A stretch of 64,000 bases of DNA from Echinometra lucunter (lineage: Eukaryota; Echinodermata; Echinoidea; Camarodonta; Echinometridae): assembly GCA_029962745.1 (NCBI GenBank), contig CM057155.1, positions 34,311,429 to 34,375,428 on the forward strand. Reading direction: 5' to 3'. Positions 1-38,185 of the stretch are shown piece after piece (position 1 is the first letter of the stretch; each line of letters begins with the position of its first letter). The notes under the pieces were generated by a model. The model saw only the letters and a program-made list of their open reading frames with translations, did no database searches and was not told the DNA's origin. A program made the position numbers and the translations under genes.

Positions 1-226
1 GATGCCATTTAGGGGTCATAAAAAGCTGATCAAATGAAATTTGCTATTGAAACTTTAAAAGTTTCATTTGTTACATTTTAAGTTCCATATATGGTAGATT
101 TATATATATATATCATACACAATACACCTAGGTTTTTATATAATGCTATATAGCCATTTCAGAATTTTTTTATGTTTTTGTTTTTCAGTAAATCATGCTT
201 GTGTCTGACTTTTTGTTTTAATCTAG

Positions 227-3200
227 GAGGCGTACTGCTACTGGCCTGGCCACAGGCAGTCCACTAAGGCAAAGGAACATGAGATCCCAGATAAGCAGAC
301 ATGGGGAAAGCATGAGATACGTTTACTCCGTGTAACAGGTTAGCATTTTGCACTTGTATACATGTACTCTAATGAATGTTACCCCACCTCTATGTGAATA
401 GGTTTATTTTAAGGGATTAAGTAACTTCATGGAGCTTGCGAAAATATGAGCTGAACCCTTCACAAATTATTATTTGTTTAACTCGAAGCTATTTGTGAAG
501 TCTCAATACTTTCAATTTGCAAGGTATTGTATTGTCCTCTACTGTTACTGCCATATGTCTCTGATGTAAAATGTTTAGATAAAAAATTGTACAATGTAAT
601 ATATAATTTTGAACTAAATTGCCTTTTTTGTCTTTTTTGCATGTTTGTTTGATTCTGGTTTACTCCCCAAAATAACCACAAAGCCTTTATTTAAAATGTA
701 TACCAGCTATTCAAAAAAAATTGACACCCTGTGCCAAAGTATATAATCTTTTAAAGTTTAAAATTCTTCTTCAAGTCGCATTTTGCACGATGACAACACT
801 ACACGCAGGCATGCACAAAATTGAATAGACATTGTACACAGACATTAAATGTCTGAGTAAATTTTACTCATCGCTGGTGCAGTTAATTCTTGTTCGGAAT
901 AGGCAAAATCAAGCATCTAACCCAAGAAAATGAGACAAATTTTCTGATTGGTGTATTTTATTTTCTGTTGTATTGGTTTTACAATGAAATGGCTGATATA
1001 CATTTGCACATGTATACCATCAAGAATTCATACCAAGATGAATTATGTTTACAGATAACTATGAGAAGGCAAGGAATATTGCAAAGAAGGCAGAGGAAAC
1101 GTCAAATGTAGAGTCTGATGGAGAAAGGCCCAGGAAGAGGCAACCTCCTTCTAGGTTCAGCTCCTCAGATGATGGTAAGTTAAACATCCTGTTCTTCAGA
1201 AGTATTTCTGTTGGCATCACTGCTGAAGGCTGAGTTGCATATGATACATGGCCAACATTTGGAAAGAGAGCATATAAGGCTAGGGTGCTCTCATGTGCTG
1301 GATGTGGACTGGCATACATATTATCTGTTTATTGTCCTGTTCTGAGCTTCGTTATTCATTTTGATTCCTGAACGTAAACACCACAATCATTCACGCCATG
1401 CATGTAGGCTTAGTGCTCACTGTTAAAATAATTTAGGTTTTCCGTTTGCGCTAGAAAATGGTGATTGGTACATTTATGGCAAAAGTAGAAGAGTTATTAT
1501 TTTGCAGCAGGTCCCTGTTACAGGCATATACTTCAGACAAGCTCATTCATGTAGCTTAATGATCAAGTCTTGTCTTGTTTGATATTATTCATGTTTTCTA
1601 GATATGGAATCAGATGCATCAGAACCTGTCAGGCGAAGCCCAAGAAAGGCCCAGGGGAAGCCAAAGGAGCTGGCTATGCCCCTATTAAAAAGACCAAATG
1701 GGCATGATGTTCCTGGACCATCCCTCCCCATCATCACCCCTCTGCAGTCGCAGTCTGCGAGTAGAACCCCGGTCACCACCCCAAAGTCCCGTCCAGAGAG
1801 TACATGTAAGTGTTTTCACAAAGCATTTTACAAATATGATCTTTGATTTTTTAATTTTTTTTCGATTAAAACAAAATTAGGGGCCTCCTCTATCTAAGAT
1901 GTTACAGGAGTTAGATGGGACATTTATGGGTAATTTTGTACAAATACAAAGTTTTTCAATTTTTTATTGTACGACCCATCACTTACATAATGTGATGGAT
2001 GTTAATAACCCCCCCCCCCCCCAAAAAAAAAAGGTATTTGAATTATTTTTCATATGAAGATCTTGAGTCATTAAAAGTAATGAGTATGAAAAGGAAAATA
2101 ACCATTAAAAAGTAAACTACCCTATACTAAAAAATTCTGCTACAGGAAAAAAGATCTTTATACCTCTGAGGTCCTAATGCTGTTAAATTAACTACAAAGG
2201 AGTGAACTAAATTAGATGGACTGTGTACAAATGGATTATTAATATGGAGGTAATACTATCAATAAAGCAGTGATATTTTTGCCTATTTCAGTGATTTTTA
2301 TTTCTTACGGTTGTTGGCATGTACTTGTCAGAGGTGTTAATGCACTCCTGAAATGATAACATTGAACAACTGTTATATTAGTATGGAATAGGCCATTGTT
2401 TGCACTTGAAGCCTTTTAGTTACCTAAATAGTTTACCCATTTGTTTGTGTTCATTTTTTTTTATTTATTTTTTTTTTCATTTTTGTTGTTGACCAGACTT
2501 CCAGACCCAAGTTCTGCTAAAGCTGCAGGCACTGGAGGAAGGACAAAAAAGGATCATGACGGCAATTAATGCTATGGGGGAGAAGCCCAAACCTTCCTCC
2601 TTGGAGTCTGCCGATTTGTGTGAGCCTTTTAGTGAGCCGTTGAATACTGTCGAAGACTTCAAGGTGCTAGAAGGTAAGTTTTACAAGATGAATAATCATG
2701 TGCATTTTCTCCAATTGGAATACACAAAAAAACCCAAGTTTCAAAGTGATGCATGCCCTGATTAATTTATAACCATGTTAAAAGATAAAAGTCACAATAG
2801 TTTCCAATTTCTTAATTTAAGACATTTTGGGAGGGGGTGGGAGGCCTGATCCAAGCGGTTTTTATCTTGATATTTCAAGATTCTGCATTTACTGCATAGT
2901 GCACTACATCCATCCCCTGAGGACCCTTGAGGAGGGCATTTTATCTTTACTTTTGACACACTTCAAGTTTCAGAATGAATACCCAATAGGATATAGAATT
3001 GTGATTAGCTGAATTGTGTGTGCTTAATAGGCAACCAGTTGAAATGGTCCTCAGGGGATGGATGTAGTGCACTATACAGTAAATGCAGAATCTTGAATTA
3101 ATGCAATGACCAGGGTACACTCTAAATCCTAGGTCCTTAACTGATATAGTGATGTTTTGGCGTGATATATATTTGTAGCGAATACAGGGCATATTAGATC

Positions 3201-3537
3201 TGATTTGGCCAAGGTCTGTGTGCATCTTTTAAATAGATCAGGTAATATTTACTGCATCAGTGTAAAGTTTTATCTTGAAAGACCCCCATTGTACTGTATA
3301 TGAAAGATAGGTGTAACTCATTTATTTGGAGGAAATTATGCAACATTGTAATTAACAAGGGTTCTTATATTTTTCAGATAACTTTCTTGAGTCTGGTTGG
3401 CGGCAGTAAACTATCACAGACTGGGAGAAGGGTCATGCAAAAGCTGGGGACCAATCATCTTTGGTCGGAGTTCAACATCCTGGGAAGGAAAGGAAAGAGG
3501 TCCCTCAAGGCAACCAAGTTTTTCCCTGTCATCGTCA
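227..3537 (+). CDS. DUF4806-type protein gene, five internal exons (partial)
   Basis: Five exons with clean splice signals encode one continuous protein type: 227-338, 1055-1174, 1602-1805, 2497-2673 and 3378-3537. The first four join in phase 1. Exon 1 gives the Trp-Pro segment AYCYWPGHRQSTKAK; exon 2 gives NYEKARNIAKKAEETS followed by a basic stretch; exon 3 is Ser/Pro/Arg-rich linker; exon 4 has a helix and ends TVEDFKVLEG; exon 5 gives ITFLSLVGGSKLSQTGRRVM then a basic end. This order fits invertebrate proteins with a C-terminal DUF4806 domain, whose function is unknown to me; some are transposon-associated. Exon 4 (phase 1) and exon 5 (phase 0) do not join in frame, and family proteins have some ten extra residues there, so a short exon in 2674-3377 is missing or unseen. 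No start or stop was identified. The last donor, GTGAGT at 3538, leads into repeats. Confidence 0.6.
339..1054. other. Intron 1 of the DUF4806-type gene
   Basis: AT-rich spacer between exons 1 and 2 (donor GT at 339, acceptor AG at 1053-1054). Nothing else recognised. The other introns (1175-1601, 1806-2496, 2674-3377) are similar; 2011-2023 is a C homopolymer. Confidence 0.5.
2875..3096. repeat. Foldback (MITE-like) element inside an intron
   Basis: The left arm (about 2875-2931, beginning TTCAAGATTCTGCATTTACT) and the right arm (about 3046-3096, ending GTAAATGCAGAATCTTGAA) are near-perfect reverse complements over about 50 bp, including GCACTACATCCATCCCC. Length about 220 bp with a non-coding loop. 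No clear target-site duplication was identified. It lies in the intron where an exon of the surrounding gene seems to be missing. Confidence 0.65.
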
Positions 3538-3772
3538 GTGAGTGTTTAGATTGAGTGATTAACCCTTTAGCACCTAGAGCCTGCGTGAAAAGTGTCGGTT
3601 TACTCACTTGCGGAAAGGGCTATGCTGTGTTTCAATCAGATTTTTTCAATTAGTATTGCTCTTAATACATATTTTTTGTGCAGAATTTGGACAGCACACA
3701 TCCAGTGGGTTATCCACAACAAGTATGGGCAGGTTTCATCACATATTTTTGATACTGTCTTGACTATAGCTG

Positions 3773-5351
3773 CATGATGATAGGCAGGCTAGCTGCTGGA
3801 AATAAGTTAGTAGAAATTCATGTTAGTAGAAATTGGCTTTTGAACACTGCAAGTCCGTTCCATAGTACTGTCACTAAAACTAAAGGAGTTCAACTCATAT
3901 CATTAGTAATATCCTTCTTTTGTTAAACATGGTAGTTTGACATTGTAGCTATGAACTTTAGCCAGACATGCCCGTACCAATCACGGAGGGCCCTGGGAGC
4001 GGGAAACTTCCAAGACCAAAGGGTCAAGTCAAGCTTGATGCAGCACTGCAAATATGTTTACAGTGCCACTGTACTGTAACGTTGGGACTAACTTTAACCA
4101 ATGGTATATGAATGGTAAATGGTGCTCATGAATATGGTAATAGTAATGTCCCAATTATTTAAGTTAGTTTGAATGGTGATTGAATGGTATACCATTGGGT
4201 GTATGGTGAGTGTTGTTCGAATGGTATTCCAGTGGTGTATCAATGGTGTATGGTGAACGGTATTTCAATGGTACATACCATTCAATTTTTTTTATAAGGG
4301 TGATGCTGTGCTGAGACAACTCTTGAGAACAAAAAAGCCAAGTAAAGAAAGAGGAAGAGGGACTGGACATGCAGTGAGTGCAGTACGTGGCCTGTGGTCA
4401 AAGAGTGTGACCCAACAGAAGTGGGTGAAGTGTACGCAGTGCCCTGTGTGGACTCACAAAACTTGCACAAATAACATTGATTTGTATCATTACATTTGCA
4501 GAAATTGTAAAAATTAAGCCAATCTTACCGCTTCATATAATGGGTCAGAATTTTGAACGATGTACAGTTAGTTCCTTCCCAGGCTTTATTTTGCTTGTAA
4601 CATTTCTGTTTCTTTCTGATCCTGTTTATTTTCATATATTCTGGTGTCATCTGAAAGAGTTATTCTAGGGCTTTCAGAAAATATGTAATTGTTGATAGTG
4701 GTAATGGTGGTACACACAGTTGAAATTAGAGAGGCAAAGACATCTAGTAAGAGGAGAGTGTCAATTCATGGAGTGGTGTTCTGCATAAGTTAAACATACC
4801 TCCCCTTTACATGTAGTCATAATTAGTCCCAGTTGGATGATATTGACATAATGCAGATAAGTAGTGATGCTTTAAGTAATAAAAATGTGATCAAACTGAA
4901 TGATAAATGGTGTATTACACATGGTAGAGAAGATGGCAAAATAAAATTGAAGAAGAACCACGCAAGATTACAGCTGTGCTTGAACATAAAATTCTGACGG
5001 CTAATTTGGACGCACATGTACGTTTCATAGCGAGACCCTCAGAAGTATCCTACAATTGGACTTACTATCATGGTAATCCCATGTCAGTGTATCAAATATT
5101 GCTATGAAAGCGCCAGAACAGTTTGTACCAAGCTTTCCAGCATTGGACTAAAAAAGAAATCTTGGTTTAAGCTCTGTTTATTCCTTGCCATTTTATTAAG
5201 TGATTTGCTCAACAACGGAATCTCCTTAATATCAAATTTCTGAAGAATATCCATGTTGTTTGTGATGGGTCATCAGTGACTTACTGTCTGGATGATTTCT
5301 CCAAAATCATTTGCTGTAAAGACACCATGACCTTTTACTGCTCTTCAAGTA
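3773..5351. repeat. Composite repeat, copy 1 (blocks X, minisatellite/PHD, Y)
   Basis: Three blocks recur at 13.2-16.6 kb. X (3773-4095) starts CATGATGATAGGCAGGC and contains ACCAATCACGGAGGGCCC. The middle block (about 4096-4690) is a GAATGGTA/CAATGGTG minisatellite followed by a PHD-finger coding remnant. Y (4694-5351) starts GATAGTGGTAATGG and ends GCTCTTCAAGTA. In copy 2 the order is middle-Y-X, so the copies are circularly permuted. Elements of this type are not known to me by name. Confidence 0.7.
4308..4517 (+). pseudogene. PHD-finger C-terminal fragment of a transposon protein (copy E)
   Basis: The frame ends with the pattern W-V-K-C-x2-C-x3-W-x-H-x2-C, then Y-I-C-x2-C-K-N and a stop, which is the second half of a C4HC3 PHD finger. 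The first Cys pair, seen as CSEC in the copy at 14989, is degraded here. PHD-like fingers of this form occur at the C-terminus of some Tigger/pogo-like DDE transposases in invertebrates. No catalytic domain precedes it; the upstream sequence is minisatellite. It is best read as the 3' end of a transposase gene captured by a non-autonomous repeat. Assignment to pogo is inference. Confidence 0.5.
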
Positions 5352-5616
5352 AACGACTTGTGCATATACATGAGCCAAGTTTGAAGTTGATCTGTCAAAT
5401 GGTCGAGTTATCACAAGACCAAACCATTTCTACGTACATAATCACCTTTGAACTTTGACCTTGAGACCCCCAAATCTACTCAGATCATTATCCCTCCCAT
5501 ATGCATACATGAGCCAAGTTTGAAGTTGATCCGTGGAATGGTTCTTAAGTAATTGTGAGAATGAAAACAGGACGACAACCTGAAAACACAATGCCTCCGG
5601 CACCCATCTTGCGTTA
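5352..5616. repeat. Dispersed repeat with duplicated GAGCCAAGTTTGAAGTTGAT
   Basis: The motif CATGAGCCAAGTTTGAAGTTGAT occurs near 5368 and again near 5508, and the stretch ends with TGCCTCCGGCACC. It resembles the GCCGGAGGC repeat at 30.7 kb. No coding sequence seen. Confidence 0.5.
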
Positions 5617-5940
5617 GTGGAGGCATAAAAACCTAAGGCATTCTTCGGAAGCGGCTCTTGCTACTGGCTCCGTCAGTAAACACAAGCACCAAGCCAAGCG
5701 CAAAACCGGAACCGAAACCGAAACCAGAACCGGAACCAGGTCGGGTAGGGTATCCAAGTCGAGTGTGGTGGAGGGTCCAGCCCTAGGGGCCACCCAACCA
5801 CTTTGCTCTAGGAGGGTCATGAGACAAGACTAGATCTCCTTAGAACCACTCGGCTCTGAAGAAACAGCAGCCCGTGAGGGGCCCCAATGTTTCTTCCTAG
5901 CTCCCCCCGAACCAGGCGGTATGGATACCGCCTAATCCCC
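5617..5940 (-). mobile_element. DIRS-like retrotransposon Gag fragment
   Basis: Nearly collinear with 18605-18895: the same stretch from the TTCTTCGGAAG.GGCTCTTGCTAC region through CCAAGTCGAGTGTGG to GGTATGGATACCGCCT. The - strand reads part of a Ser/Pro/Lys-rich protein (MTLLEQSGWVAPRAGPS). The extra copies of the Arg-Asn-Arg-type codons (ACCGGAACCGAAACC) are a small expansion not seen at 18.6 kb. No recombinase or reverse transcriptase is present, so this is a dead fragment. Confidence 0.55.
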
Positions 5941-6139
5941 CAAATACAAGTCTTCAATAATAGGAAGGCAGAAATGAAGTACAAATTTCCATCCAGATTC
6001 AAGCTACAGAAAGAAGAACTCCTCATTGGGGAGGACAAGCAACATATAAAGGGAAAAATATCAAACTTATCAACACTTCCGCCATAAACAATTTGCTCCT
6101 TTTTCTGACGAGGCATGTAGAGCATCATTCGACTTTATG

Positions 6140-6420
6140 CAACACAATCCTTTGAGGTAACAAAACAAGGAAGAAGATACAGTAACCGACTTATGTTCTG
6201 CAGGGAAATGGGATGAGGGGAGAGTCAATTGGCTCTTCCAGATTTGTAAGATTGAGATATTGGAACCAAAGGATAGATGCCTATGGAACAGACAACTATT
6301 TTGTTTCACACATGTCTGAAGAAGCGAGTTCATAAGTACTGACGGGGGCAGCCATTGGTTGTATGATGTTACAGGTCACCAAGTCATTGTGCCCAAAAGT
6401 TAGCTTGCCGTTCGAGCTTT
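6140..6420. repeat. Dispersed repeat, shared with 36740-37020
   Basis: About 280 bp is almost identical to 36740-37020, from GAAGAAGATACAG through GGGATGAGGGGAGAGTCAA and ACTGACGGGGGCAGCCATTG to CTTGCCGTTCGAGCTTTCAT. The short open frames across it on both strands are not convincing proteins. The element family was not recognised. Confidence 0.7.
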
Positions 6421-6590
6421 CATTTTTTTTTTTTTAGAAATATTATGTTATTTATTTTTTCACCTCATACCAGTTGTAAGTGATGACATGATGACTTTGG
6501 TCTTTTACTTTCTTTTTTCTTGTGTGTTTATAACAAGGTTTTCCTTTTTTCACTCTTTTTGATTTTGTTAATATCCTTTTGTGCATGTAG

Positions 6591-8964
6591 GTAGTCGAGC
6601 GATGGCCTTGAGCACATTCAAGACTGTTTGGAAGCAGTATGCGCCCCTGATAGTGACCGCCAAACCGATGACGGACCTTTGCTGGACTTGCCAGCAGAAC
6701 ACCCACAGGATGTTTGTAAGAGCAAATGCAACTGAAGAGGAGAAGCTAGAGCAGCTACAGTCCCACCAGCAGCACCTTGACAAGGTTCTCGTAGAAAGAA
6801 CAAAGTACAGGTACATTCAAGACCATGTTCTTCCTAGTCTTTCCTCATCGTTGCTTACACACTAAAGTCAGAATACATGTATTTCACTGGGAAACACAGT
6901 TTACACAGTTTATCTGCATCAAAATCATTGGTGTTGTCTGTCACAGTTCTAAATGACTGTTTATCCTGAAATAGAATTAATTAAAGACCCTGACTGGACC
7001 CAAAACTGAAATACTCAGCAGGATAGCGAAAAAATTTGCATTGTTTTGGTTTGTAATTCATATATTTTCCATTTGTTAATTTCACCTTCGGCTCCAGTCT
7101 GGGTTTTCTGAATAATTCATTTTAGTAAGTGTTTAGAAAATCTGATCTTATTCCTCATTCATGTGTGTTTTGATTTGTATACTGAAGATTTAATTTTTTT
7201 AATTAACTGACACTATTTTAAATTACCCATATTATTATTGATAATTCTTCTTATTAATATTTATTTATCTATATTTATTTTTTACAGGGAAGAAACTGCT
7301 GCTGCGAAAGCAAGCATTGCTGACGATGGTGGAGAACTGGGACGCCATCCACCAAACTCGAGGGATGGAAAGATGCACTACAGCTTCGACTATGCTCAGC
7401 AAGTGCATTATCCTGCGAATCCCCAGCAACCGGGTCCTACATACTTTTTGTCGACGAGGAAGTGTGGGATTTTTTGTGTAAACTGCGAAGGAATCCCAAA
7501 GCAGGTAAATGAATTGATTGTAATAAATTATAAAATAATTATAGTATCACAAATATGTTTTGAGTGAAAAGAAGAAGTCAACATAAAATAAGAAACAAAA
7601 TAGACATTGTTACTAAATATTAATTAGTACATTGGAAATCCTTTTAAAGTGAGAGCATTCATTATCAGTCTGTCATAGGTAGATAGTGTTAAAATATATC
7701 TTTCCTGATAACTACTTTGGTTAAATACAGTGAATAAGTTGAATAAAATGAAAATAGGTTTATGTGTATAGGGAAACAAATGTTTTTGGGGAAAGGTACC
7801 CACTTTTTTATACTTCTGAAAGTAAATTAAATTTAATGTTCTGTAATTATGTTTATTAAAGCTAATTAATCTTGTTATTTTCTTGTCTGCTTTATTTTTT
7901 TATCTCGCGTTAATTTCCTCATTGATGAAGGTATGTCTCTCTCCAAGGGATCCATCGCAGTTGTATCATACCTGCACTACTTTTTCAACAACTTCAGGCT
8001 TGGTGAGAGAAAAGCAAGTCTTCACTGCGACAATTGTTCTGGCCAAAACAAGAATAAATTCATGCTTTGGTATTTTGTCATGGCGCTGTCTCCACCACTT
8101 ACACAAAGACATCACTCTGAATTTCATGGTGGCAGGGCACACCAAGTTCGCACCGGACTTCTGTTTTTGGGCTACTAAAGCCTCCAAGGTATCAACTCTA
8201 CAAGACATCGCCAACGTAGTTCAACAGAGCTCTACTCAGGGGATCAACATTCCAGTGGTAGTGGGTGATGAAGCTGGTAATCAACGGGTGCCTACCTACC
8301 AGTGGCAAGATTTCTTATCCCCATACTTCAGGCCTGTACCAGAGATCAAGTCTTACCATCATTTCAGGTATGTTTATAATCCATAAAATTATTTGTTATG
8401 CACAGTCATCCTCGCCTCTGTGGAATCTGTTGGGACTGCTTTGACTTAGAAAGTAATTGATGTACAAATGATTAAAAACAATTGAACATTAGAGAAGTTG
8501 GCTTTCAAATACTTTCAACTTAGGCAATTTCAACAAAGACAAGTTTGATTGCAGTTTTGCATCATTTCTCATGTTGCACACACACCAAAAAATCAAAACA
8601 GACATTCAAGAAATTAATGTTATAATTTACAGACCTGTTATTATGATTGTGATTAATATTATTTGGTTGATTTGACTCTGATTCTTTAGTATCAAGGGTT
8701 CATTGTTTTATTTATTTTTATCACAGATTTTCATCCAGAGAACCAGGAGTGGTCTTCTGCCGTCGGTTTGCGGATACAGAGGAGAAAAGATTTGTCCTAT
8801 TGAAGCCTGGAGCCAACCCTCCCCGTCTTCTTCCTCCAAGTCTTGCACCACCTGGCCCGTCCTACGAGCGACAACTCTACCTGTTCCAGAAGATCCGACC
8901 CTTCTGCAGACCAGATGCCAGGGACACAACTTGTCCAGAGCCAGAGCAGGAAGGACTTCAATGA
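6591..8964 (+). pseudogene. DUF7869-like transposon-type gene, four exons, disrupted
   Basis: Exons are 6591-6810, 7288-7504, 7909-8367 and 8727-8964 (stop TGA at 8962-8964). Exon 1 carries STFKTVWKQYAPLIV and LCWTCQQNTH; exon 3 carries SLHCDNCSGQNKNKFM and GHTKFAPDFCF; exons 3 and 4 join as YHHFR-FSS. This order matches a large family of multi-copy invertebrate proteins with a DUF7869-like domain, probably transposon-derived; the Pfam name is from memory. Two lesions are visible. The reading frame through NFLIDEGMSL requires exon 3 to start at 7909, but the preceding dinucleotide is GC, not AG. One extra base near 8075-8082 shifts the frame between MLWYFV and WRCLHHLHKD. Upstream exons were not found; repeats occupy that side. 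It could be a recent pseudogene, or partly sequencing error. Confidence 0.6.
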
Positions 8965-9055
8965 GCCTGGAACTAACCCAACATGCTTTCTTCCTCCAAG
9001 CCTTTCACCGCCTGACAACTCTACCTGTACCAGAAGATTCAACATCTCTACAAGG
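8965..9055 (+). repeat. Duplicated piece of the preceding terminal exon
   Basis: Resembles 8802-8900 in order: GCCTGGA..AACCC, CTTCTTCCTCCAAG, then ACAACTCTACCTGT.CCAGAAGAT. It starts directly after the stop codon of the upstream gene and in another frame would encode LLPPSL/FLPPSL-type sequence. A local tandem duplication with a period of about 160 bp. Confidence 0.6.
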
Positions 9056-9077
9056 TGCAATGGACTCGACTTTCCCA

Positions 9078-9385
9078 CACTGCAAAAACGCCGGTGTTAA
9101 ATGTGCAGCACCAAGCTGGTGTTAAGCATATGGTGTTTCTCTCAGCGTTAGATTAACACCAGAGGGTGTTAAATGTTCAACACCGAGCTGGTGTTAAGCA
9201 TTGTGGTGTTATTTTTAATGTAAGATTAACACCAGTGGGTGTCACTATAGGGTGGAAGTCAACACCAAATTTGGTGTCGGGTATTTTTGTGTAAATTTGG
9301 TGTAAAATAACACCAAACGGGTGTCGTTTCCATAGAAGTTGTCAGACCAGTTATCGATTAACACCCAAACAGGTGTTAGAAAAGT
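9078..9385. mobile_element. TAACACC/GGTGTTA palindrome-rich element (MITE-like)
   Basis: It starts with CACTGCAAAAACGCCGGTGT and holds about a dozen GGTGTTA or TAACACC heptamers in both orientations, often paired as AACACC-N-GGTGTT. A matching GTTTTTGCAGTG end was not seen, so the right end appears lost before the LINE fragment at 9.6 kb. Non-coding. The family assignment is uncertain. Confidence 0.55.
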
Positions 9386-9591
9386 CAAAATTGGGCATGC
9401 GCAAAAAAATCCAGCTTCATGATTGGTTGAAAGTTGGAACAGCTATTTTTTTTTCCAGAGAGCCGGCCGCCGCAATCCGCCATTTTCCTGCCGTGCTTAA
9501 AATCTGCGATCATAACTGCTTGAGATAATGAATCTTCAGTAAATCCATCCAATCCAGAGAGATCATCAAGAAACTGCATATTTGTGTTGAA

Positions 9592-9884
9592 TTACATTCC
9601 ACTGTATGCTTTGGCAAAGAGGACCGTTTTCAGATTTGACTTAAAGGAATCAAAGGAATCAATTGAACGGATATCGGCTGGTAACTGGTTCCATAGAAAT
9701 GGAGCAGCCGCAGTAAAAGCACAATCGCCAAAGGATGACTTTGTTCTTCCAGCAACAAGAAGATTCTTACTAGAAAAACGCAAACAACGTGTTGGTACAT
9801 ATTTGGAAATGAGATCTACAAGATATGAAGTAAGGAGCAAAATTTTGTACTCAATACGATCCCTGACTGGCAGCCAATGGCCAG
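9592..9884 (-). mobile_element. 5'-truncated CR1/L2-like LINE, end of reverse transcriptase ORF
   Basis: The - strand encodes HWLPVRDRIEYKILLLTSYL, then RTKSSFGDCAFTAAAPFLWNQLP and SFDSFKSNLKTVLF. This is the usual extreme C-terminus of the reverse transcriptase of CR1/L2/Rex-type non-LTR retrotransposons. Only about 95 codons remain, as expected for 5' truncation at insertion. Its truncated end directly abuts the acceptor of the RAG1-like exon at 9892, so it inserted in, or was joined to, the intron just upstream of that exon. Confidence 0.75.
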
Positions 9885-9891
9885 ACTGCAG

Positions 9892-10604
9892 ACTGGGAGG
9901 TGACCACTGATCTTAAATCGCTCTTTCAAGATCATGAGAAGAGGCTTAGTGACCATCTTCAAGCCAGCCTTGGAATTGTACCAGCCTTAATGATGCCAGG
10001 AAATCAGGCCAGGCTTCTCTTTGCAGAAGAGAATGAACACATCATTTTGCAACTAATCGAGGATGATGACAGACGACGAGACCTCAGCAATATCCTGGCA
10101 TTTTTTCATCGGCTGCGATCCGTCTATCGACCAACACACGCAGAGAAGGAGGCAACTGATGCGTACAAGGCAGTTGCTGTGGAAATGGGGCAGCTTCTCC
10201 TGGACAAGTTTGCTTATGTAGCTTGGCCCAATTACCTACATAAGCTCATCGAACATGGCCAGGAGATTATCCAAGACCCTGAGGGACCAGGCAGTGTAGG
10301 TGCTCTGAGTGGGGAAGGGAGCGAGGCAGCCAACAAACTGTTCCGAGAACTGCGCAACGATTTTTCAAGGAAATACAATACGACTGATTCCTTACGTGAT
10401 GTACTATGGTTTCATTAGCTGTATACCAGTCCAAAGCTTTGCAAGATCGTAGAAGTTCGTCCTAGAAAATACGTCTGCTCGAGGTGTGGTCAACAGGGTC
10501 ACAGTTCACTCCATTGTATAAAAAAAATAAGGACTAAGGAAAATCTGGCATACAGTCTCAGTCTTCAACAAGTCAAAGTTCAGTTTAATCATGAGAAGAA
10601 ATAA
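9892..10604 (+). pseudogene. RAG1L: RAG1-like recombinase, C-terminal exon with one nonsense codon
   Basis: Counting from the GTG at 9900, the frame contains MMPGNQARLLF (31-41), the zinc-type pair H114 and H119 in NYLHKLIEH, and SGEGSEAANKLFRELR (137-152). Mouse RAG1 has zinc ligands H937 and H942 and catalytic E962; the spacing here, H114-H119-E139, is identical, so E139 (GAA, 10314-10316) should be the third acid of the DDE triad. The frame then reads VLWFH, a TAG at 10416-10418, and LYTS; RAG1 has Trp at that place, so one transition makes the stop. Beyond it the frame stays open to TAA at 10602-10604 and encodes CSRCGQQGHSSLHC (10476-10517), a CCHC knuckle such as the extended tail of ProtoRAG RAG1L carries. 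The acceptor CTGCAG precedes 9892. The core with the first two Asp residues is absent from the window. Confidence 0.85.
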
Positions 10605-11824
10605 CATTTTTTTCATATAACAAGTAAATATGCTGAGATAGGAATGCAGTAACAATTGCATCTCTTTTGTAATGCTTCTGTTATGTTCTTTATTTTTCAC
10701 ATCAGAAGGAAATAATTGTTTTCATGTGTCCATCATTAAAATGTGCCGATATCAACTTAAGGGCAACAAGATATACATAATTTTAAGAAAACTAGCAGTG
10801 CTCGCTCTTTTCAGGCCAAATTTCTGACATTGCCTTAAAATGTATAACGAAACTGACTGATAATGATTAAGGGGTCTTGGCAACTTTGTGGAACCTTCAA
10901 TTAATAAGATCAAGATAACTATGACTAAATAGTGCCATTCATGAAAATGTTCTGTGGTACCCTCATATAACACTGCATTCTCTGAGGCAAAAATCATCTG
11001 GCAATTCCGGTCACTTGCACATTTTTACATTGTTTGAAGCACGTAATGATTCTTTTGACATGAATTTTTCAGGGCTTCATCTTTACACTATATAACATGC
11101 TTTTATAGCATGTAGGGTCATGCAGCTCATATTTTACAAAGCTACCAAATCACTTTAATGCTTCCCTGTGAAAATCATCATATGTACAGATATTCACATA
11201 AATAGCAAAAGCTCATGCTTCAAAGGACATGTACAACTAAAATTTGCATGAAATTTCTTTCTTATTCCTTTCTGAGTTTACATGGAAAGTTGAGTTCTGA
11301 GAGATCAATAACTTAGGTCTGTAATGAAACCAATAATCACTCTGTGAAATGATAGATGTCATGGATGTAAAGGTAGAGTTCAACAATTCTTAATATTGCA
11401 TTTTTTCTTTAATTGTGCATACATCTATTATATGTTTTGAAAAGCAAATTGGAAATTTTAAGCAAAGTAACTTTCATCGAGTGTGGTAAATGAGAAAATT
11501 TCTCTTTTTTCTTGGTTTTCCTGGTGCATTTTGTAACCACATCTATTTTTCTAGGAAGTAGGAACAATTGATGTAATTGCCTACAAATCATATCTTTTTA
11601 TATATTGAACTTTAGGGTTGTTTTTCTATATTAGATTGCTTTCCATGACATTGGACAGATTTTTTATCATAGCCCCCCAAATGTTAAAACTATACCTTTA
11701 AATACCAACACCTTTTATTTGGCACAATATCAATGATAAAGTGAGATACATTTATTACCAATGGACGTGTACATGTTTTTCTGATAAACATTACTTGATT
11801 GGCATCAGTATAATCTTTGATCTA
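10605..11824. other. Spacer between the convergent RAG1-like and RAG2-like frames
   Basis: AT-rich, no convincing coding sequence on either strand; expected to hold the two 3' UTRs. ATTAAA at 10735-10740 is a possible poly(A) signal for the + gene. Confidence 0.5.
11751..11756 (-). promoter_or_regulatory. Possible poly(A) signal of the RAG2-like gene
   Basis: AATAAA on the - strand, about 70 bases past the RAG2-like stop codon at 11827-11825. A second AATAAA lies at 11719-11714. Position is suitable; use is inferred. Confidence 0.35.
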
Positions 11825-12675
11825 TCATCGACAATTTGGGCAAAAGTAATTTCCTGCTGGGATTGTCACAACTTTTACAGTGTGCGTGATACCATTTTTT
11901 GCATCGTGGATTGTCACACTGAATCCATGTTGGATCTTGATGTTCTTGTGAAGAGGAAATTATACAAGGTACACAGTCGCATGGTTCTGGCTCAAAGTTA
12001 CGATCAGTGAGAAGAGAAAGTTGCCTTGAAGTTCCACCTATCACTAGAATAGTATTGTCATTTGTAAGGTTGAGCAGAGAATGTCCAAATGTAGGAAATA
12101 CATCTGGTGCTTGGCATGTCTTTGGTAGAGTTTGAAAGTTCTTATTAGTCAAATCAAGAACGAATGCAGTACTTGAGGCTGCACATGGCTTATTGCATCA
12201 GTTATCTCTTTTGTATTGGACTGAATTCCACCTGAAACAATTATGTTATTGTTATTTGTTGTTGTGGCATGTGATGATAAGAATACACATGAAGTGTTTG
12301 GTGTCTTTGGATCAAGTTCAACTTCTTGCAGTGTAAATTGCAATGGGCTAATTGCTTGTCCATTGTCAGTACTATGACATTGCCAATTAGTTCACGATAA
12401 GCTGGTAGTGGTCCATCCAAAACAAGTCCCCCAATTAATAATAAAAGAGTATTCTGTGTCTTTCTCCAGTAAAGTTGCAGAGTGATACGCCTTTGCTTGT
12501 ATCAAAGGAACCCTTACATGTTTCCATGCAAATGTGTCCATATCCAGTAGGTAAAACCGCCCATCCTCGCAAGACTTACACTTTGTCTGAAATTGATTTT
12601 TTTCCAGTGACAAACCTCCAAACAGAAGAGCTCTATTTTCCCCAGGTATCTTGGTTAAGGTGTGGCCAGTTCTGC
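11825..12675 (-). pseudogene. RAG2L: RAG2-like protein, kelch repeats plus PHD finger, four frame breaks
   Basis: Reading leftward from an acceptor (CTACAG, exon start 12675): RTGHTLTKIPGENRALLFGG, a kelch motif; FYLLDMDTFAWKHV; HSATLLEKD; then in a shifted frame GGLVLDGPLPAYRELIGN; then SPLQFTLQEVELDPKTP and IIVSGGIQ; then FVLDLTNKNFQTLP, FGHSLLNL and ILVIGG. The C-terminus is a C4HC3 PHD finger: CVPC, WIQC-x4-C, WYHAHC and, in the last frame, NYFCPNCR with TGA at 11827-11825. Frame breaks fall near 12451, 12350-12385, 12165-12180 and 11868-11873, each one base. Vertebrate RAG2 is a six-blade kelch propeller with a C-terminal PHD finger that reads H3K4me3; amphioxus RAG2L lacks the PHD. The first propeller blades are not in the window. 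Four one-base shifts mean a pseudogene or a poorly polished assembly. Confidence 0.8.
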
Positions 12676-13218
12676 CTGTAGATAGAACAAGAATTTATTT
12701 ATAACACTCTGTAATTGCTTATTTTCTTATTTTGGTAGTTAAAGGGTTATTGCAGTTGGCACGCACTGCATCAATATCCTTTTTGTAGATGTTCTTTTTA
12801 ATTTGCAGATGCAGTGGTTATTTTTTCTTATTTTCACTTTGGAAATAGCAAATTGAGATTAAAGTGGATAGAAAGGTAACAGTGATTTTTTTTAAATTGC
12901 ATAACTTATCCTGCATAAATTGTATATATTGCTTGGTTTATAGAGGTTTTACAAATTTACAATTAATTCAATTTCATAATTTGTAATATATGTTCTGGCT
13001 CCAGTCACTGCCCAACACCAGCAATGTATTCAGTAGGTTGATAATTCTACAGAGGAGAAAGTTAGGAAGTCAAGTTCAAATGTGTCGCCCATTTATTTTC
13101 AAGTACATGAAGTATCAATGTTTGTATAGTTGAAATACATTACCATTGTTTTTAAAACTGCCATCTATAGTAAATCTCTTCACAGATAGTCTGGTGAAAT
13201 ATTAAATAATTTGTATGC
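12676..13218. other. Sequence upstream of the RAG2-like exon
   Basis: Presumed intron remnant 5' of the RAG2-like exon on the - strand. I looked for a preceding kelch exon and for a CAC-starting TIR and found neither. Confidence 0.4.
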
Positions 13219-15378
13219 ATGCTGTGCTGAGACAACTCTTGAGAACAAAAAAAAGCCAAGCAAAGAAAGAGAAAGAGGGACTGGACATGCAGTGAGCGCA
13301 GTGGCCTGTGGTCAGAGAGTGTGACCCAACAGAAGTGGGTCAAGTGTAGGCAGTGCCCTGTGTGGACTCACAAAACTTGCACAGATAACATTGATTTGTA
13401 TCATTACAATTGTAGAAATTGTAAAAATTAAGTCAATCTTTACAGTGAATGGTAGGCCAATGGTGTACAGTGAATGGTGTGTGTCGAATGGTAGGCCAGT
13501 GCTGAATGGTGGATCAATGGTGAATGGTAGGTCAATGGTGATCCTGTCTATAGTGGCCAGTATGTGAATGGTTGGCCATGAATGGTAGATCAATGGTGAA
13601 TGGTGTTTAACCAATGGTATATGAATGGTAAATGGTGCTCATGAATATGGTAACAGTAATGTCCCAATTATTCAAATTAGTTTGAATGGTGTTTGAATGG
13701 CATACCATTGGGTGTATGGTGAGTGTTGTTCGAATGGTATTCCAGTGGTGTATCAATGGTGTATGGTGAACAGTATTTCAATGGTATACCATTCAATTTT
13801 TTTATAAGGGTGATGCTGTGCTCAGACAACTCTTGAGAACAAAAAAAGCCAAGCAAAGAGGAAGAAGGACTGGACATGCAGAGAGAGCAGTGGCCTGTGG
13901 TCAGAGAGTGTGACCCAACAGAAGTGGGTCAAGTGTAGGCAGTGCCCTGTGTGGACTCACAAAACTTGCACAGATAACATTGATTTGTATCATTACAATT
14001 GTAGAAATTGTAAAAATTAAGTCAATCTTTACAGTGAATGGTAGGCCAATGGTGTACAGTGAATGGTGTGTGTCGAATGGTAGGCCAGTGCTGAATGGTG
14101 GATCAATGGTGAATGGTAGGTCAATGGTGATCCTGTCTATAGTGGCCAGTATGTGAATGGTTGGCCATGAATGGTAGATCAATGGTGAATGGTGTTTAAC
14201 CAATGGTATATGAATGGTAAATGGTGCTCATGAATATGGTAACAGTAATGTCCCAATTATTCAAATTAGTTTGAATGGTGTTTGAATGGCATACCATTGG
14301 GTGTATGGTGAGTGTTGTTCGAATGGTATTCCAGTGGTGTATCAATGGTGTATGGTGAACAGTATTTCAATGGTATACCATTCAATTTTTTTATAAGGGT
14401 GATGCTGTGCTCAGACAACTCTTGAGAACAAAAAAAGCCAAGCAAAGAGGAAGAAGGACTGGACATGCAGAGAGAGCAGTGGCCTGTGGTCAGAGAGTGT
14501 GACCCAACAGAAGTGGGTGAAGTGTACGCAGTGCCCTGTGTGGACTCACAAAACTTGCACAGATAACATTGATTTGTATCATTACATTTGTAGAAATTGT
14601 AAAAATTAAGTCAATCTTTACAGTGAATGGTAGGCCAATGGTGTACAGTGAATGGTATGTGTTGAATGGTAGGCCAGTGGTGAATGGTGGATCAATGGTG
14701 AATGGTAGGTCAATGGTGATCCTGTCTATAGTGGCCAGTATGTGAATGGTTGGCCATGAATGGTAGATCAATGGTGAATGGTGTTTAACCAGTGGTATAT
14801 GAAAGGTAAATGGTGCTCATGAATATGGTGATAGTAATGTCCCAATTATTTAAATTAGTTTGAATGGTGTTTGAATGGTTTACCATTGGGTGTATGGTGA
14901 GTGTTGTTCAAATGGTATTCCAGTGGTGTATCAATGGTGTATGGTGAACGGTATTTCAATGGTATACCATTCAATTTTTTTATTGATGATGCTGTGCTGA
15001 GACAACTCTTGAGAACAAAAATAGCCAAGCAAAGAAAGAGGAAGAGGGACTGGACATGCAGTGAGTGCAGTGGCCTGTGGTCAGAGAGTGTGATCCAACA
15101 GAAGTGGGTGAAGTGTACGCAGTGCCCTGTGTGGACTCATAAAACTTGCACAGATAACATTGATTTGTATCATTACATTTGTAGAAATTGTAAAAATTAA
15201 GTCAATCTTACCGCTTCATATATGGGTCAGAATTTTGAACGATGTACAGTTGGTTCCTTCCCAGGCTTTATTTTGCTTGTAACATTTCTGTTTCTTTCTG
15301 ATCCTGTTTATTTTCATATATTTTGGTGTCATCTGAAAGAGTGATTCCAGGGCTTTCAGAAAATATGTAATTGTTGAT
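13219..15378 (+). repeat. Tandem array of ~590-bp units, each PHD remnant plus GAATGGTA minisatellite
   Basis: The marker ATGCTGTGCTSAGACAACTC starts at 13219, 13813, 14402 and 14989, giving periods of 594, 589 and 587 bp. Each unit holds a PHD-finger coding remnant (about 210 bp) followed by a minisatellite built on GAATGGT, CAATGGTG and TAGGCCAGTG words. Units 1 and 2 are almost identical over the minisatellite, so duplication is recent. The fourth unit continues into the 3' flank also seen at 4518-4693. Confidence 0.9.
14989..15200 (+). pseudogene. PHD-finger fragment, best-preserved copy (D)
   Basis: Encodes VLRQLLRTKIAKQRKRKRDW, then CSEC, WVKCTQCPVWTHKTC and YICRNCKN with a stop at 15200. 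All eight zinc ligands of a C4HC3 PHD are present in order. The basic stretch before it could act as nuclear localisation. The frame opens upstream into minisatellite, so no native start exists. Copies A (13219), B (13813) and C (14402) carry point changes such as CSEC to CSER. Confidence 0.55.
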
Positions 15379-25126: not shown

Positions 25127-26928
25127 ATGATGGCCAGCAAACCAAAGAAGCAGAGACCACTGCCCATCATCTCTGCAGTAACTCGGGCTGCTCAGTTTCC
25201 AGACACTTTCTACACTGATGGTGGTGTGATGTTTTGCAGACATTGCAGCCATAGTGTTGATTACACAAGATCTGATACTGTTAAGGACCATCTTAAAAGT
25301 AAAAAACATTTGAAAAACAAAGAACTAAAATCAAATCCTCTGCTAACTGGATCAGAGCAAGGACCAACAATACCAGCAGCAGCTGCACGACGTCAGACTA
25401 CTTTGCATTCAACCGTGAAGTCCAAAGACCTGAGGGAAGAGTTCATATTAGACTTTGTGAAGTGCTGCACAATGGCTGATATCCCTCTTCATAAAGTGGA
25501 GAATATGAGACCTTTCATCTTGAAACATTGTAAGCAAGGTGGTGCACTCCCAAAAGCAACTTTGCGCCATCTGTATATTCCACGGCAGTTCCACGGCAGT
25601 TCAAGATTCACCTTGCAGCCCTGAAGGAAGTGGTGAAAGGAGCAAAGGTGTCTGTCATAGCTGATGAAACAACAGACATTCGTGACCACAGTATTCTGAA
25701 CGTAATCGTTGGGGTCCGTGGAAAGTACTACCTCATTGATGTGTGCACTATGGAGGCATGCAACCATGCAACACTCAGCCAAGCTGTTGTGAAGGTGTTG
25801 ACTAACATGGACATCAAGTTTGATGATGTGATAGCAATTGTCACCGACAGTGCTGCCTACTGCAAGAAAGCTGCTCGAGAAGTTCTCACGCCATTACTTC
25901 CAAACAGCAGGCATGTACCATGCCTAGACCATATCATAAATCTTGGGGCGGAGGCATTTCAGCACTATCCAGAATTTGGCAGGGTTGACACTTTCACCAA
26001 GATGATGAAATCGGCCTTCTTCAAAAAGCCAGCCCGCAAAACTAGGTACTTAAAATACCTAAAAGAGTATCTGCCCCCCGACCAGTGCAAATTGGCACCA
26101 GCCCCTGTTTCCACCCGGTGGAATTCCGGGTACAATGCAGTGAAGTATCACAAGGAGCATCTTCATGTGTATGAAGGTTTCTTCAAACTGGAAGACAGTA
26201 AAGGTGTGGCTGTGGAAACCATTCTGGAAATGTTGAGGAACAAGGAAATCTACAGCGAGCTTGAGCTGTACATGAGCTTCATAACAGAGTACAGTGCCAG
26301 ACTCACAACTGTCCTCACCAGCCTCGAAGCAACAAAGAAGCCCCTCGCCTGTACTGTGTACAATATCCTTGAGGACACCAAAACCTACCTCACTACAGAG
26401 CGAACATCGTTCGACCAGATCAACCCACTCATGGAGAAAAGACCAGCACCAGAGAGACAAAAACTTTGCAAAACATTCAACAAAGTGTTTAAAGCGGCAG
26501 CGGACAAGATCACTAAGCATCTAGACCAACATCCAGCCATGCCGTTCTACAAGGCTGCTCGAATCTTTGATCCCAGACAGCTGGTCTCCATTTCCTTGGA
26601 CATCGATGACTACCAGCACGCCATACCTGATCTGACAGCAGCTGCTATTCAAACTGAGGAGTGGCTGATGTACACACATCTGAACCCATCCCACATCCCA
26701 GAACCTCTGAATCTTACCGAATTCTGGAAGTCCATGTCAGTCAGATTCCCTGGTCTTGCCAGTATTGCTATGGATGCTATGTGGATGCCAGTGTCGAGTG
26801 TGGATGTTGAGTGAAGCTTTTCTCAGTACAAGCACATTCTTGACGACAAAAGAGAAAACCTAACACCGGAAAACACCAAAATGATGACCATGCTCTACTA
26901 TAATGCAGATGTAGAAAGGCAGTTCTAA
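25127..26928 (+). pseudogene. hAT transposase with N-terminal BED finger, two lesions
   Basis: The start MMASKPKK (25127) follows an AT-rich leader. A BED-type finger has C37-x2-C40-x14-H55-x5-H61 in VMFCRHCSHSVDY. The catalytic part has KVSVIADETTD (first Asp), AIVTDSAAYC (second Asp), PCLDHIINL and APVSTRWNSGY. The C-terminal dimerisation region has FWKSMSVRFPGLASIAMDA and SSVDVE-stop-SFSQYKH. It resembles CGGBP1-type/BED hAT proteins. Lesion 1: an 11-bp unit TTCCACGGCAG is tandemly doubled (25578-25588, 25589-25599), shifting the frame. Lesion 2: TGA at 26812-26814 where the family has Arg (VERSFS), a CGA to TGA transition. Beyond it the frame stays open to TAA at 26926-26928. About 600 residues, near full length, so inactivation is recent. 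Confidence 0.85.
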
Positions 26929-37960: not shown

Positions 37961-38185
37961 GGGAGGTGTATGGTGAACGGTATTTCAATGGTATACCCAT
38001 TCAATTTTTTTTATAAGGGTGATGCTGGCTGAGACAACTCTTGAGAACAAAAAAAAGCCAAGCAAAGAAAGAGGAAGAGGGACTGGACATGCAGTGAGTG
38101 CAGTGGCCTGTGGTCAGAGAGTGTGACCCAACGGAAGTGGGTGAAGTGTACGCAGTGCCCTGTGTGGACTCTTCAACATGTCAGG
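37961..38185 (+). pseudogene. PHD-finger repeat fragment (copy F), truncated
   Basis: It starts in the minisatellite (GTATGGTGAACGGTATTTC) and continues through the GACAACTCTTGAGAACAAAA and AAGTGTACGCAGTGCCCTGT words of the 13-15 kb units, then stops after TGTGTGGACTC, losing the last His/Cys ligands. A single isolated copy, about 23 kb from the array. Confidence 0.6.

Follow-up and report, generated by a model that had tools for sequence, protein, structure and literature searches.

A broken tail-to-tail RAG1-like/RAG2-like gene pair, very probably left by a ProtoRAG-type transposon, and an intact relative on C13

The stretch of DNA analysed here (the window; 64,000 nucleotides, C5:34311429-34375428 of a 743-Mb assembly with 2,266 contigs) carries what we regard with high confidence as the tail-to-tail remnant of a ProtoRAG-type RAG1-like/RAG2-like (RAGL) transposon, made up of the broken 3' portion of a RAG1L gene and the likewise broken last exon of a RAG2L gene. 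In vertebrates, the RAG genes cut and rejoin antibody genes, and a RAG transposon was the source of this V(D)J recombination. The main value of the relic is that it led to another element, on C13, in which the convergent pair is intact; fossil RAGL pairs are a kind known already, and the C13 element is the more interesting result.

The gene pair in the window

The RAG1L 3' remnant (9880..10604, + strand) was delimited with PDB and Pfam matches and with frameshift-tolerant alignment to relatives. In Pfam, the frame 9867-10418 (+) hits RAG1 (PF12940) with E 6e-18 and 64.7 bits, where 25 are required, and in a six-frame Pfam scan of window positions 1-15001 the RAG1 match is confined to this frame. 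Its best PDB match is the amphioxus RAG1L chain 6b40_A (E 1.2e-42); vertebrate RAG1 chains match at E 9e-17 to 3e-15, and the DNA transposase 6pqn, which we take to be a Transib transposase, at E 4.3e-5 only. The RAG1-like C-terminus that the sequence-only reading had proposed for the + strand is therefore real, and the profile search suggested with it gave a significant RAG1 match; its start had been put at 9892, which is inside RAG1L and 12 bases late, because the homology begins at 9880 (bases 9880-9891 read ARLQ in the frameshift-tolerant alignment). The remnant has one frameshift (at 9892) and one stop codon. The open frame 9894-10415 holds the catalytic Glu; the two catalytic Asp belong to the missing part, and the DDE triad is checkable for the Glu only. 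The TAG stop (10416-10418) stands in a column in which 63 of the 70 other rows having a residue there have Trp, and past it the frame continues into a C-terminal tail with a zinc knuckle (CSRCGQQGHSSLHC) and ends with TAA at 10602-10604. Note that the alignment to P0001 puts an extra shift at 10467; the tail of P0001 differs, and the Asterias row needs no such shift. For the N-terminal parts of RAG1L, the rest of the window had no match below E 0.13, and the 10 kb to its left had none at E 1e-3.

The two genes are in tail-to-tail order, RAG1L (+) running up to 10604 and RAG2L (-) lying from 11825 on, and 1,220 bp separate their stop codons (spacer at 10605..11824; 1,232 bp in C13, where the pair is intact). 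The last exon of RAG2L, with kelch repeats and a PHD finger, occupies 11825..12675 on the - strand, as defined by alignment to C13 RAG2L and relatives: minus-strand pieces from 12673 to 11828 align to C13 RAG2L with a joint E of 2e-59, and the identities are 162 of 280 residues with Asterias rubens P0086 and 159 of 278 with Diadema antillarum P0087. The earlier assignment of the kelch repeats and the PHD finger to a RAG2-like gene thus holds. Frameshifts lie near 12448, 12330, 12200 and 11876; the aligner puts five (against P0086) and six (against P0087), which we read as at least four events. The PHD finger (11825..11981, - strand, start approximate) was located by the spacing of its zinc ligands, of which the first six are in one frame (C-4-C-15-C-4-C-4-H-2-C) and the last two Cys in another (CxxC, FCPNCR), followed by the stop TGA; the spacing is in line with the invertebrate RAG2L pattern in the accessible text of PMC7204232. 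Because the frame is broken, the RAG2L piece alone matches weakly in PDB (6b40_M, E 0.04) and reaches 17.2 bits with the Pfam PHD family, under the cut-off of 24; C13 RAG2L matches the same amphioxus RAG2L chain, 6b40_M, at E 1.8e-19. The description of the pair as convergent, broken and about 1.2 kb apart was correct, given the spacer, the stop and the frameshifts.

The element has lost its outer part on either side, and what is left is a remnant rather than a whole element. On the left, the 5' side of RAG1L is cut off by a fragment of a dispersed repeat (9568..9879, - strand). Leaving aside the window and two very short hits, at least 38 places match inside this repeat (40 scored of 131 candidates), and 29 of the 38 reach exactly 9879, where RAG1L starts; no Pfam family was found for the repeat, which is presumably the end of a LINE. 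On the right, the RAG2L exon starts at 12675 after TCTTGTTCTATCTACAG, and the C13 counterpart has TTTTTCTTCCAG at equal position and phase; the acceptor being common to both, the edge at 12675 is a splice site and not a break. The sequence-only reading, which had the pair truncated on both outer sides, was thus right for RAG1L and right about the position 12675, but this is the first exon base after a splice acceptor. The acceptor (CTACAG) belongs to 12676..13218 (- strand), probably a residue of RAG2L intron 2; bases 12600-13218 occur only once in the genome. Beyond this single-copy part, tandem 589-bp units (13219..15209) form the right boundary of the relic and lie outside the RAGL element. 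With these units and the repeat at 9568-9879, the pair is embedded among other repeats, as had been noticed. The upstream RAG2L exons are lost further right of 12675: N-terminal queries from three relatives gave no match to exons 1-2 at E <=0.5 in the whole window, and in 12 kb to the right and 9.9 kb to the left the best was only E 0.18. A scan for CAC ends with a target duplication found none for the window copy; with its own ends gone, its being a transposon insertion is suggested by its kin.

Several other features were seen around the relic. The tandem 589-bp units carry a PHD-like reading (WVKCRQCPVWTHKTC), apparently not related to the PHD of RAG2L, and pieces of the unit sequence recur at 4093-4696, left of the relic, and near 38000. 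A 426-aa frame at 25534-26814 (+) has a DUF659 and a hAT dimerisation domain, that is, a hAT-type transposase. Short ACACC/GGTGT-rich direct and inverted repeats at 9069-9300 have, by eye only, the look of a small non-autonomous element.

Relatives in the tree and in the genome

Homologues were taken from a large protein set (22, 60 and 5). The RAG1L tree covers the window columns only, with 74 of the 87 rows (13 rows with under 120 letters in these columns were dropped); removal of two long branches gave the final tree of 72 rows, in which the C12 fragment described below was not included. The RAG1L copies of the window, C13 and C1 fall in a 17-row echinoderm clade (support 100/98), the 10 named rows of which are Patiria, Asterias, Acanthaster, Lytechinus pictus (four), Diadema setosum, Diadema antillarum and S. 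purpuratus; two named echinoderm rows, P0008 (Diadema setosum) and P0044 (Amphiura), are outside it. Within the clade, the window and C13 copies form a 10-row subclade (99/93) with sea stars. The C1 copy joins Diadema setosum (100/90) and S. purpuratus (100/96; row P0030), the latter being, unlike the window copy, in the other echinoderm subclade. The window RAG1L is about 53% identical to the C13 copy, which is thus a relative and not its source. The clade shared with S. purpuratus RAG1L was obtained in a tree without the RAGL_A, RAGL_C and RAGL_D references of PMC7204232 (two vertebrate RAG1 rows); the accessible part of that paper assigns S. purpuratus RAG1L to RAGL_B.

The phylogeny that had been proposed as a check accordingly grouped the window RAG1L with sea star and sea urchin copies, and it is because of this tree that the window copy is placed with echinoderms. 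The PHD finger had been taken to argue for an ambulacrarian rather than an amphioxus lineage; the lineage stands, but the PHD alone is no pointer to it. Protostome RAG2L is invariably followed by a PHD according to the text available from PMC7204232, so the PHD separates the window copy from amphioxus ProtoRAG only.

In the genome, PF12940 gave five matches at four loci (C13, C1, C12 and the window). C13 RAG2L as the query gave six (C13, the window (two), C5 at 18.91 Mb (two) and C12), the C12 match being PHD-only and set aside. RAGL genes or pieces are therefore present at four loci besides the window: C13, C1, C12 and C5 at 18.9 Mb. The last is a lone RAG2L relic (C5:18914381-18915173), and the C12 locus (C12:4831650-4832054) is a RAG1L fragment ending at a 500-N gap. 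On C1 (about 35764300-35768000), a RAG1L without its C-terminus faces RAG2L exons 1 and 2, in which there are stops; 58 bases lie between the end of the RAG1L homology and what looks like the splice donor of RAG2L exon 2. The C1 copy is the mirror image of the window copy, having kept the outer parts and lost the middle, which the window has kept; the two are decay products from different subclades. The scan for CAC ends and a target duplication gave nothing for C1 and C12, and one pair at the C5 18.9-Mb locus was taken as chance (0.12 expected). A contig of 29,103 bases in the assembly is mitochondrial, and the order and strands of its genes agree with those of echinoids; PMC7947835 states that this order is common to echinoids and holothuroids and that asteroids have another, so that the animal is an echinoderm from one of the first two classes.

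The element on C13

The check for intact copies with CAC ends and a 5-bp duplication, which had also been suggested, was made at the RAGL loci of the genome and gave one, an 11.5-kb element (C13:12192858-12204348) with intact convergent RAG1L and RAG2L. In the predicted gene models, RAG1L has 817 aa in four exons, no stops, and both catalytic Asp and the Glu; RAG2L has 471 aa in three exons, PHD included, and no stops; all five introns of the two genes are GT-AG. The best protein matches are at 77% for RAG1L and at 85% over 79% of the query for RAG2L, and the exon-1 frame of RAG2L has no match in PDB.

The scan of the ends asked for CAC, agreement of the first 7 bases and a matching 5-bp flank on either side, with 200 shuffles for comparison. 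One pair was found at C13, with CACAACG at both ends and CTAAC on both sides (0.05 pairs expected per shuffle). Past 7 bp the ends agree weakly (11 of 16 over 16 bases). A second shared block inside the ends at ProtoRAG spacing, was looked for by eye, and a 5-base match was dropped because its spacings fell on the wrong ends. In the genome, a 149-base query places the RAG2L-side end once; the RAG1L-side end occurs twice, and its second copy (278 bp, 85.7%) stops one base short of the terminus and thus supports that terminus independently. This second copy (C5:7765051-7765252) is decayed and has no recognisable RAGL genes in the 3.2 kb around it.

An empty site adjoins the element: it reads CACTAACTGGATGC, against CACTAAC, the element and CTAACTGGATGC at the filled site. 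The two flank copies are 94.2% identical over 1,031 ungapped columns, and one of them is interrupted by an insert of about 700 bp. Between the empty and the filled copy is a 500-N gap, and the filled sequence begins 7 bases before the element. Of nine further stretches checked, two have 500-N gaps too and one a longer run of 2,119 N; the 500-N runs were taken for scaffold joins. We infer that a RAG transposon was inserted here after the split of the two flank copies; most simply, the insertion is heterozygous, and the element is a good candidate, by its sequence, for a recently mobile RAG transposon. The fuller picture, in which a living RAG transposon on C13, heterozygous in the sequenced animal, sits beside a graveyard of older copies including the window relic, is put forward tentatively, with a probability somewhat short of even.

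It is also possible, if rather doubtful, that the empty site arose by tandem duplication of the flank and is not the other allele, in which case the insertion may be fixed and older. The adjoining of the flank copies on one scaffold, their difference of about 6% outside gaps together with the 700-bp insert, and the position of the insertion site within a dispersed repeat (40 scored of 2,495 candidates) are in its favour. However, the 500-N gap between the copies and a filled sequence starting 7 bases before the element are what is expected for two haplotypes placed end to end, and beyond the repeat, among the same 40 scored candidates, long flank matches occur at the two C13 copies only, with two matches of fewer than 90 bases elsewhere. 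On either reading, the flank copies had split before the insertion took place.

Origin of the window copy and its precedents

The spacer of nearly the same length in the C13 pair and the shared splice acceptor support the reading of the window copy as a relic of a RAGL transposon. The parent element would have moved by cut and paste, RAG1L cutting beside the CAC at each end and RAG2L helping DNA binding and, via its PHD finger, histone tail binding; the insertion would have left a 5-bp target duplication. The window copy may then have decayed through point changes and small indels, with the dispersed repeat replacing the RAG1L 5' side at 9879 and RAG2L exons 1-2 being lost, probably before 13219.

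It is improbable that the window copy goes back instead to a RAG1L/RAG2L pair that was resident and domesticated and was pseudogenised afterwards. The window has neither TIRs nor a target duplication, and sea urchin RAGL pairs are described as domesticated in the accessible text of PMC9885083; yet RAGL genes or pieces occur at four further loci, a relative with ends, a target duplication and an empty site stands on C13, and in place of the intact coding frames expected of a domesticated pair the window genes have a stop and frameshifts. A Transib transposase remnant beside an unrelated kelch gene has a negligible probability: RAG1 and Transib transposases are related, but the window RAG1L is far closer to amphioxus RAG1L than to 6pqn, the kelch-PHD frames match RAG2L along their length, and the pair is intact on C13 in equal orientation. 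Transib as a transposase alone, without RAG2L, was likewise refuted by the presence of RAG2L and the poorer 6pqn match.

The RAGL remnant shares with amphioxus ProtoRAG (BbRAG1L/BbRAG2L, PDB 6b40) the convergent genes and the zinc-knuckle RAG1L tail, and 6b40 is the best PDB match for both proteins. It differs in having a PHD, since amphioxus RAG2L is without one in the available portion of PMC7204232, which also describes broken RAGL pairs and RAGL families A-D. The excerpt of PMC8289069 gives asymmetric amphioxus TIRs with the heptamer CACTATG and 45.5% identity between the two TIRs; the C13 ends begin with CACAACG, and those of the window copy are lost. Among echinoderms, the part of PMC4411706 at hand reports a fossil pair in green sea urchin, LVRAG1L/LVRAG2L, which like the window pair is broken by stops and frameshifts (LVRAG1L; LVRAG2L has three exons), and in bat star TransibSU-1_PM, with 13-bp TIRs and a 5-bp duplication, which resembles the C13 element in its short TIRs and 5-bp target duplication. 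These are at other loci and in other species; the window keeps the element middle only, and C13 also has an empty site. The relic is thus new, as had been claimed, but as an example of decay at one locus it has published forerunners. SpRAG1L/SpRAG2L and PlRAG1L/PlRAG2L are likewise echinoderm multi-exon pairs, SpRAG2L having a PHD; unlike the C13 element, they are described as without TIRs and immobile in the accessible text of PMC9885083. The part of a 2023 paper available states that TIRs around RAGL genes were identified in no echinoid genome. Our own search found no published echinoid RAGL element with ends; subscription papers were mostly outside this search, and absence is not proved by it.

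The C1 and window copies illustrate two decay routes, the former having lost the middle and kept the outer gene parts and the latter the reverse. To our knowledge, there are few RAG elements that are intact, carry both genes, have defined ends and show signs of a recent move. The C13 pair makes the mobility of echinoderm RAGL elements and the contribution of the PHD finger directly testable. If the C13 element is indeed living and its host is an echinoid, echinoids would have their first RAGL element with ends, and RAG transposition would be ongoing outside amphioxus.
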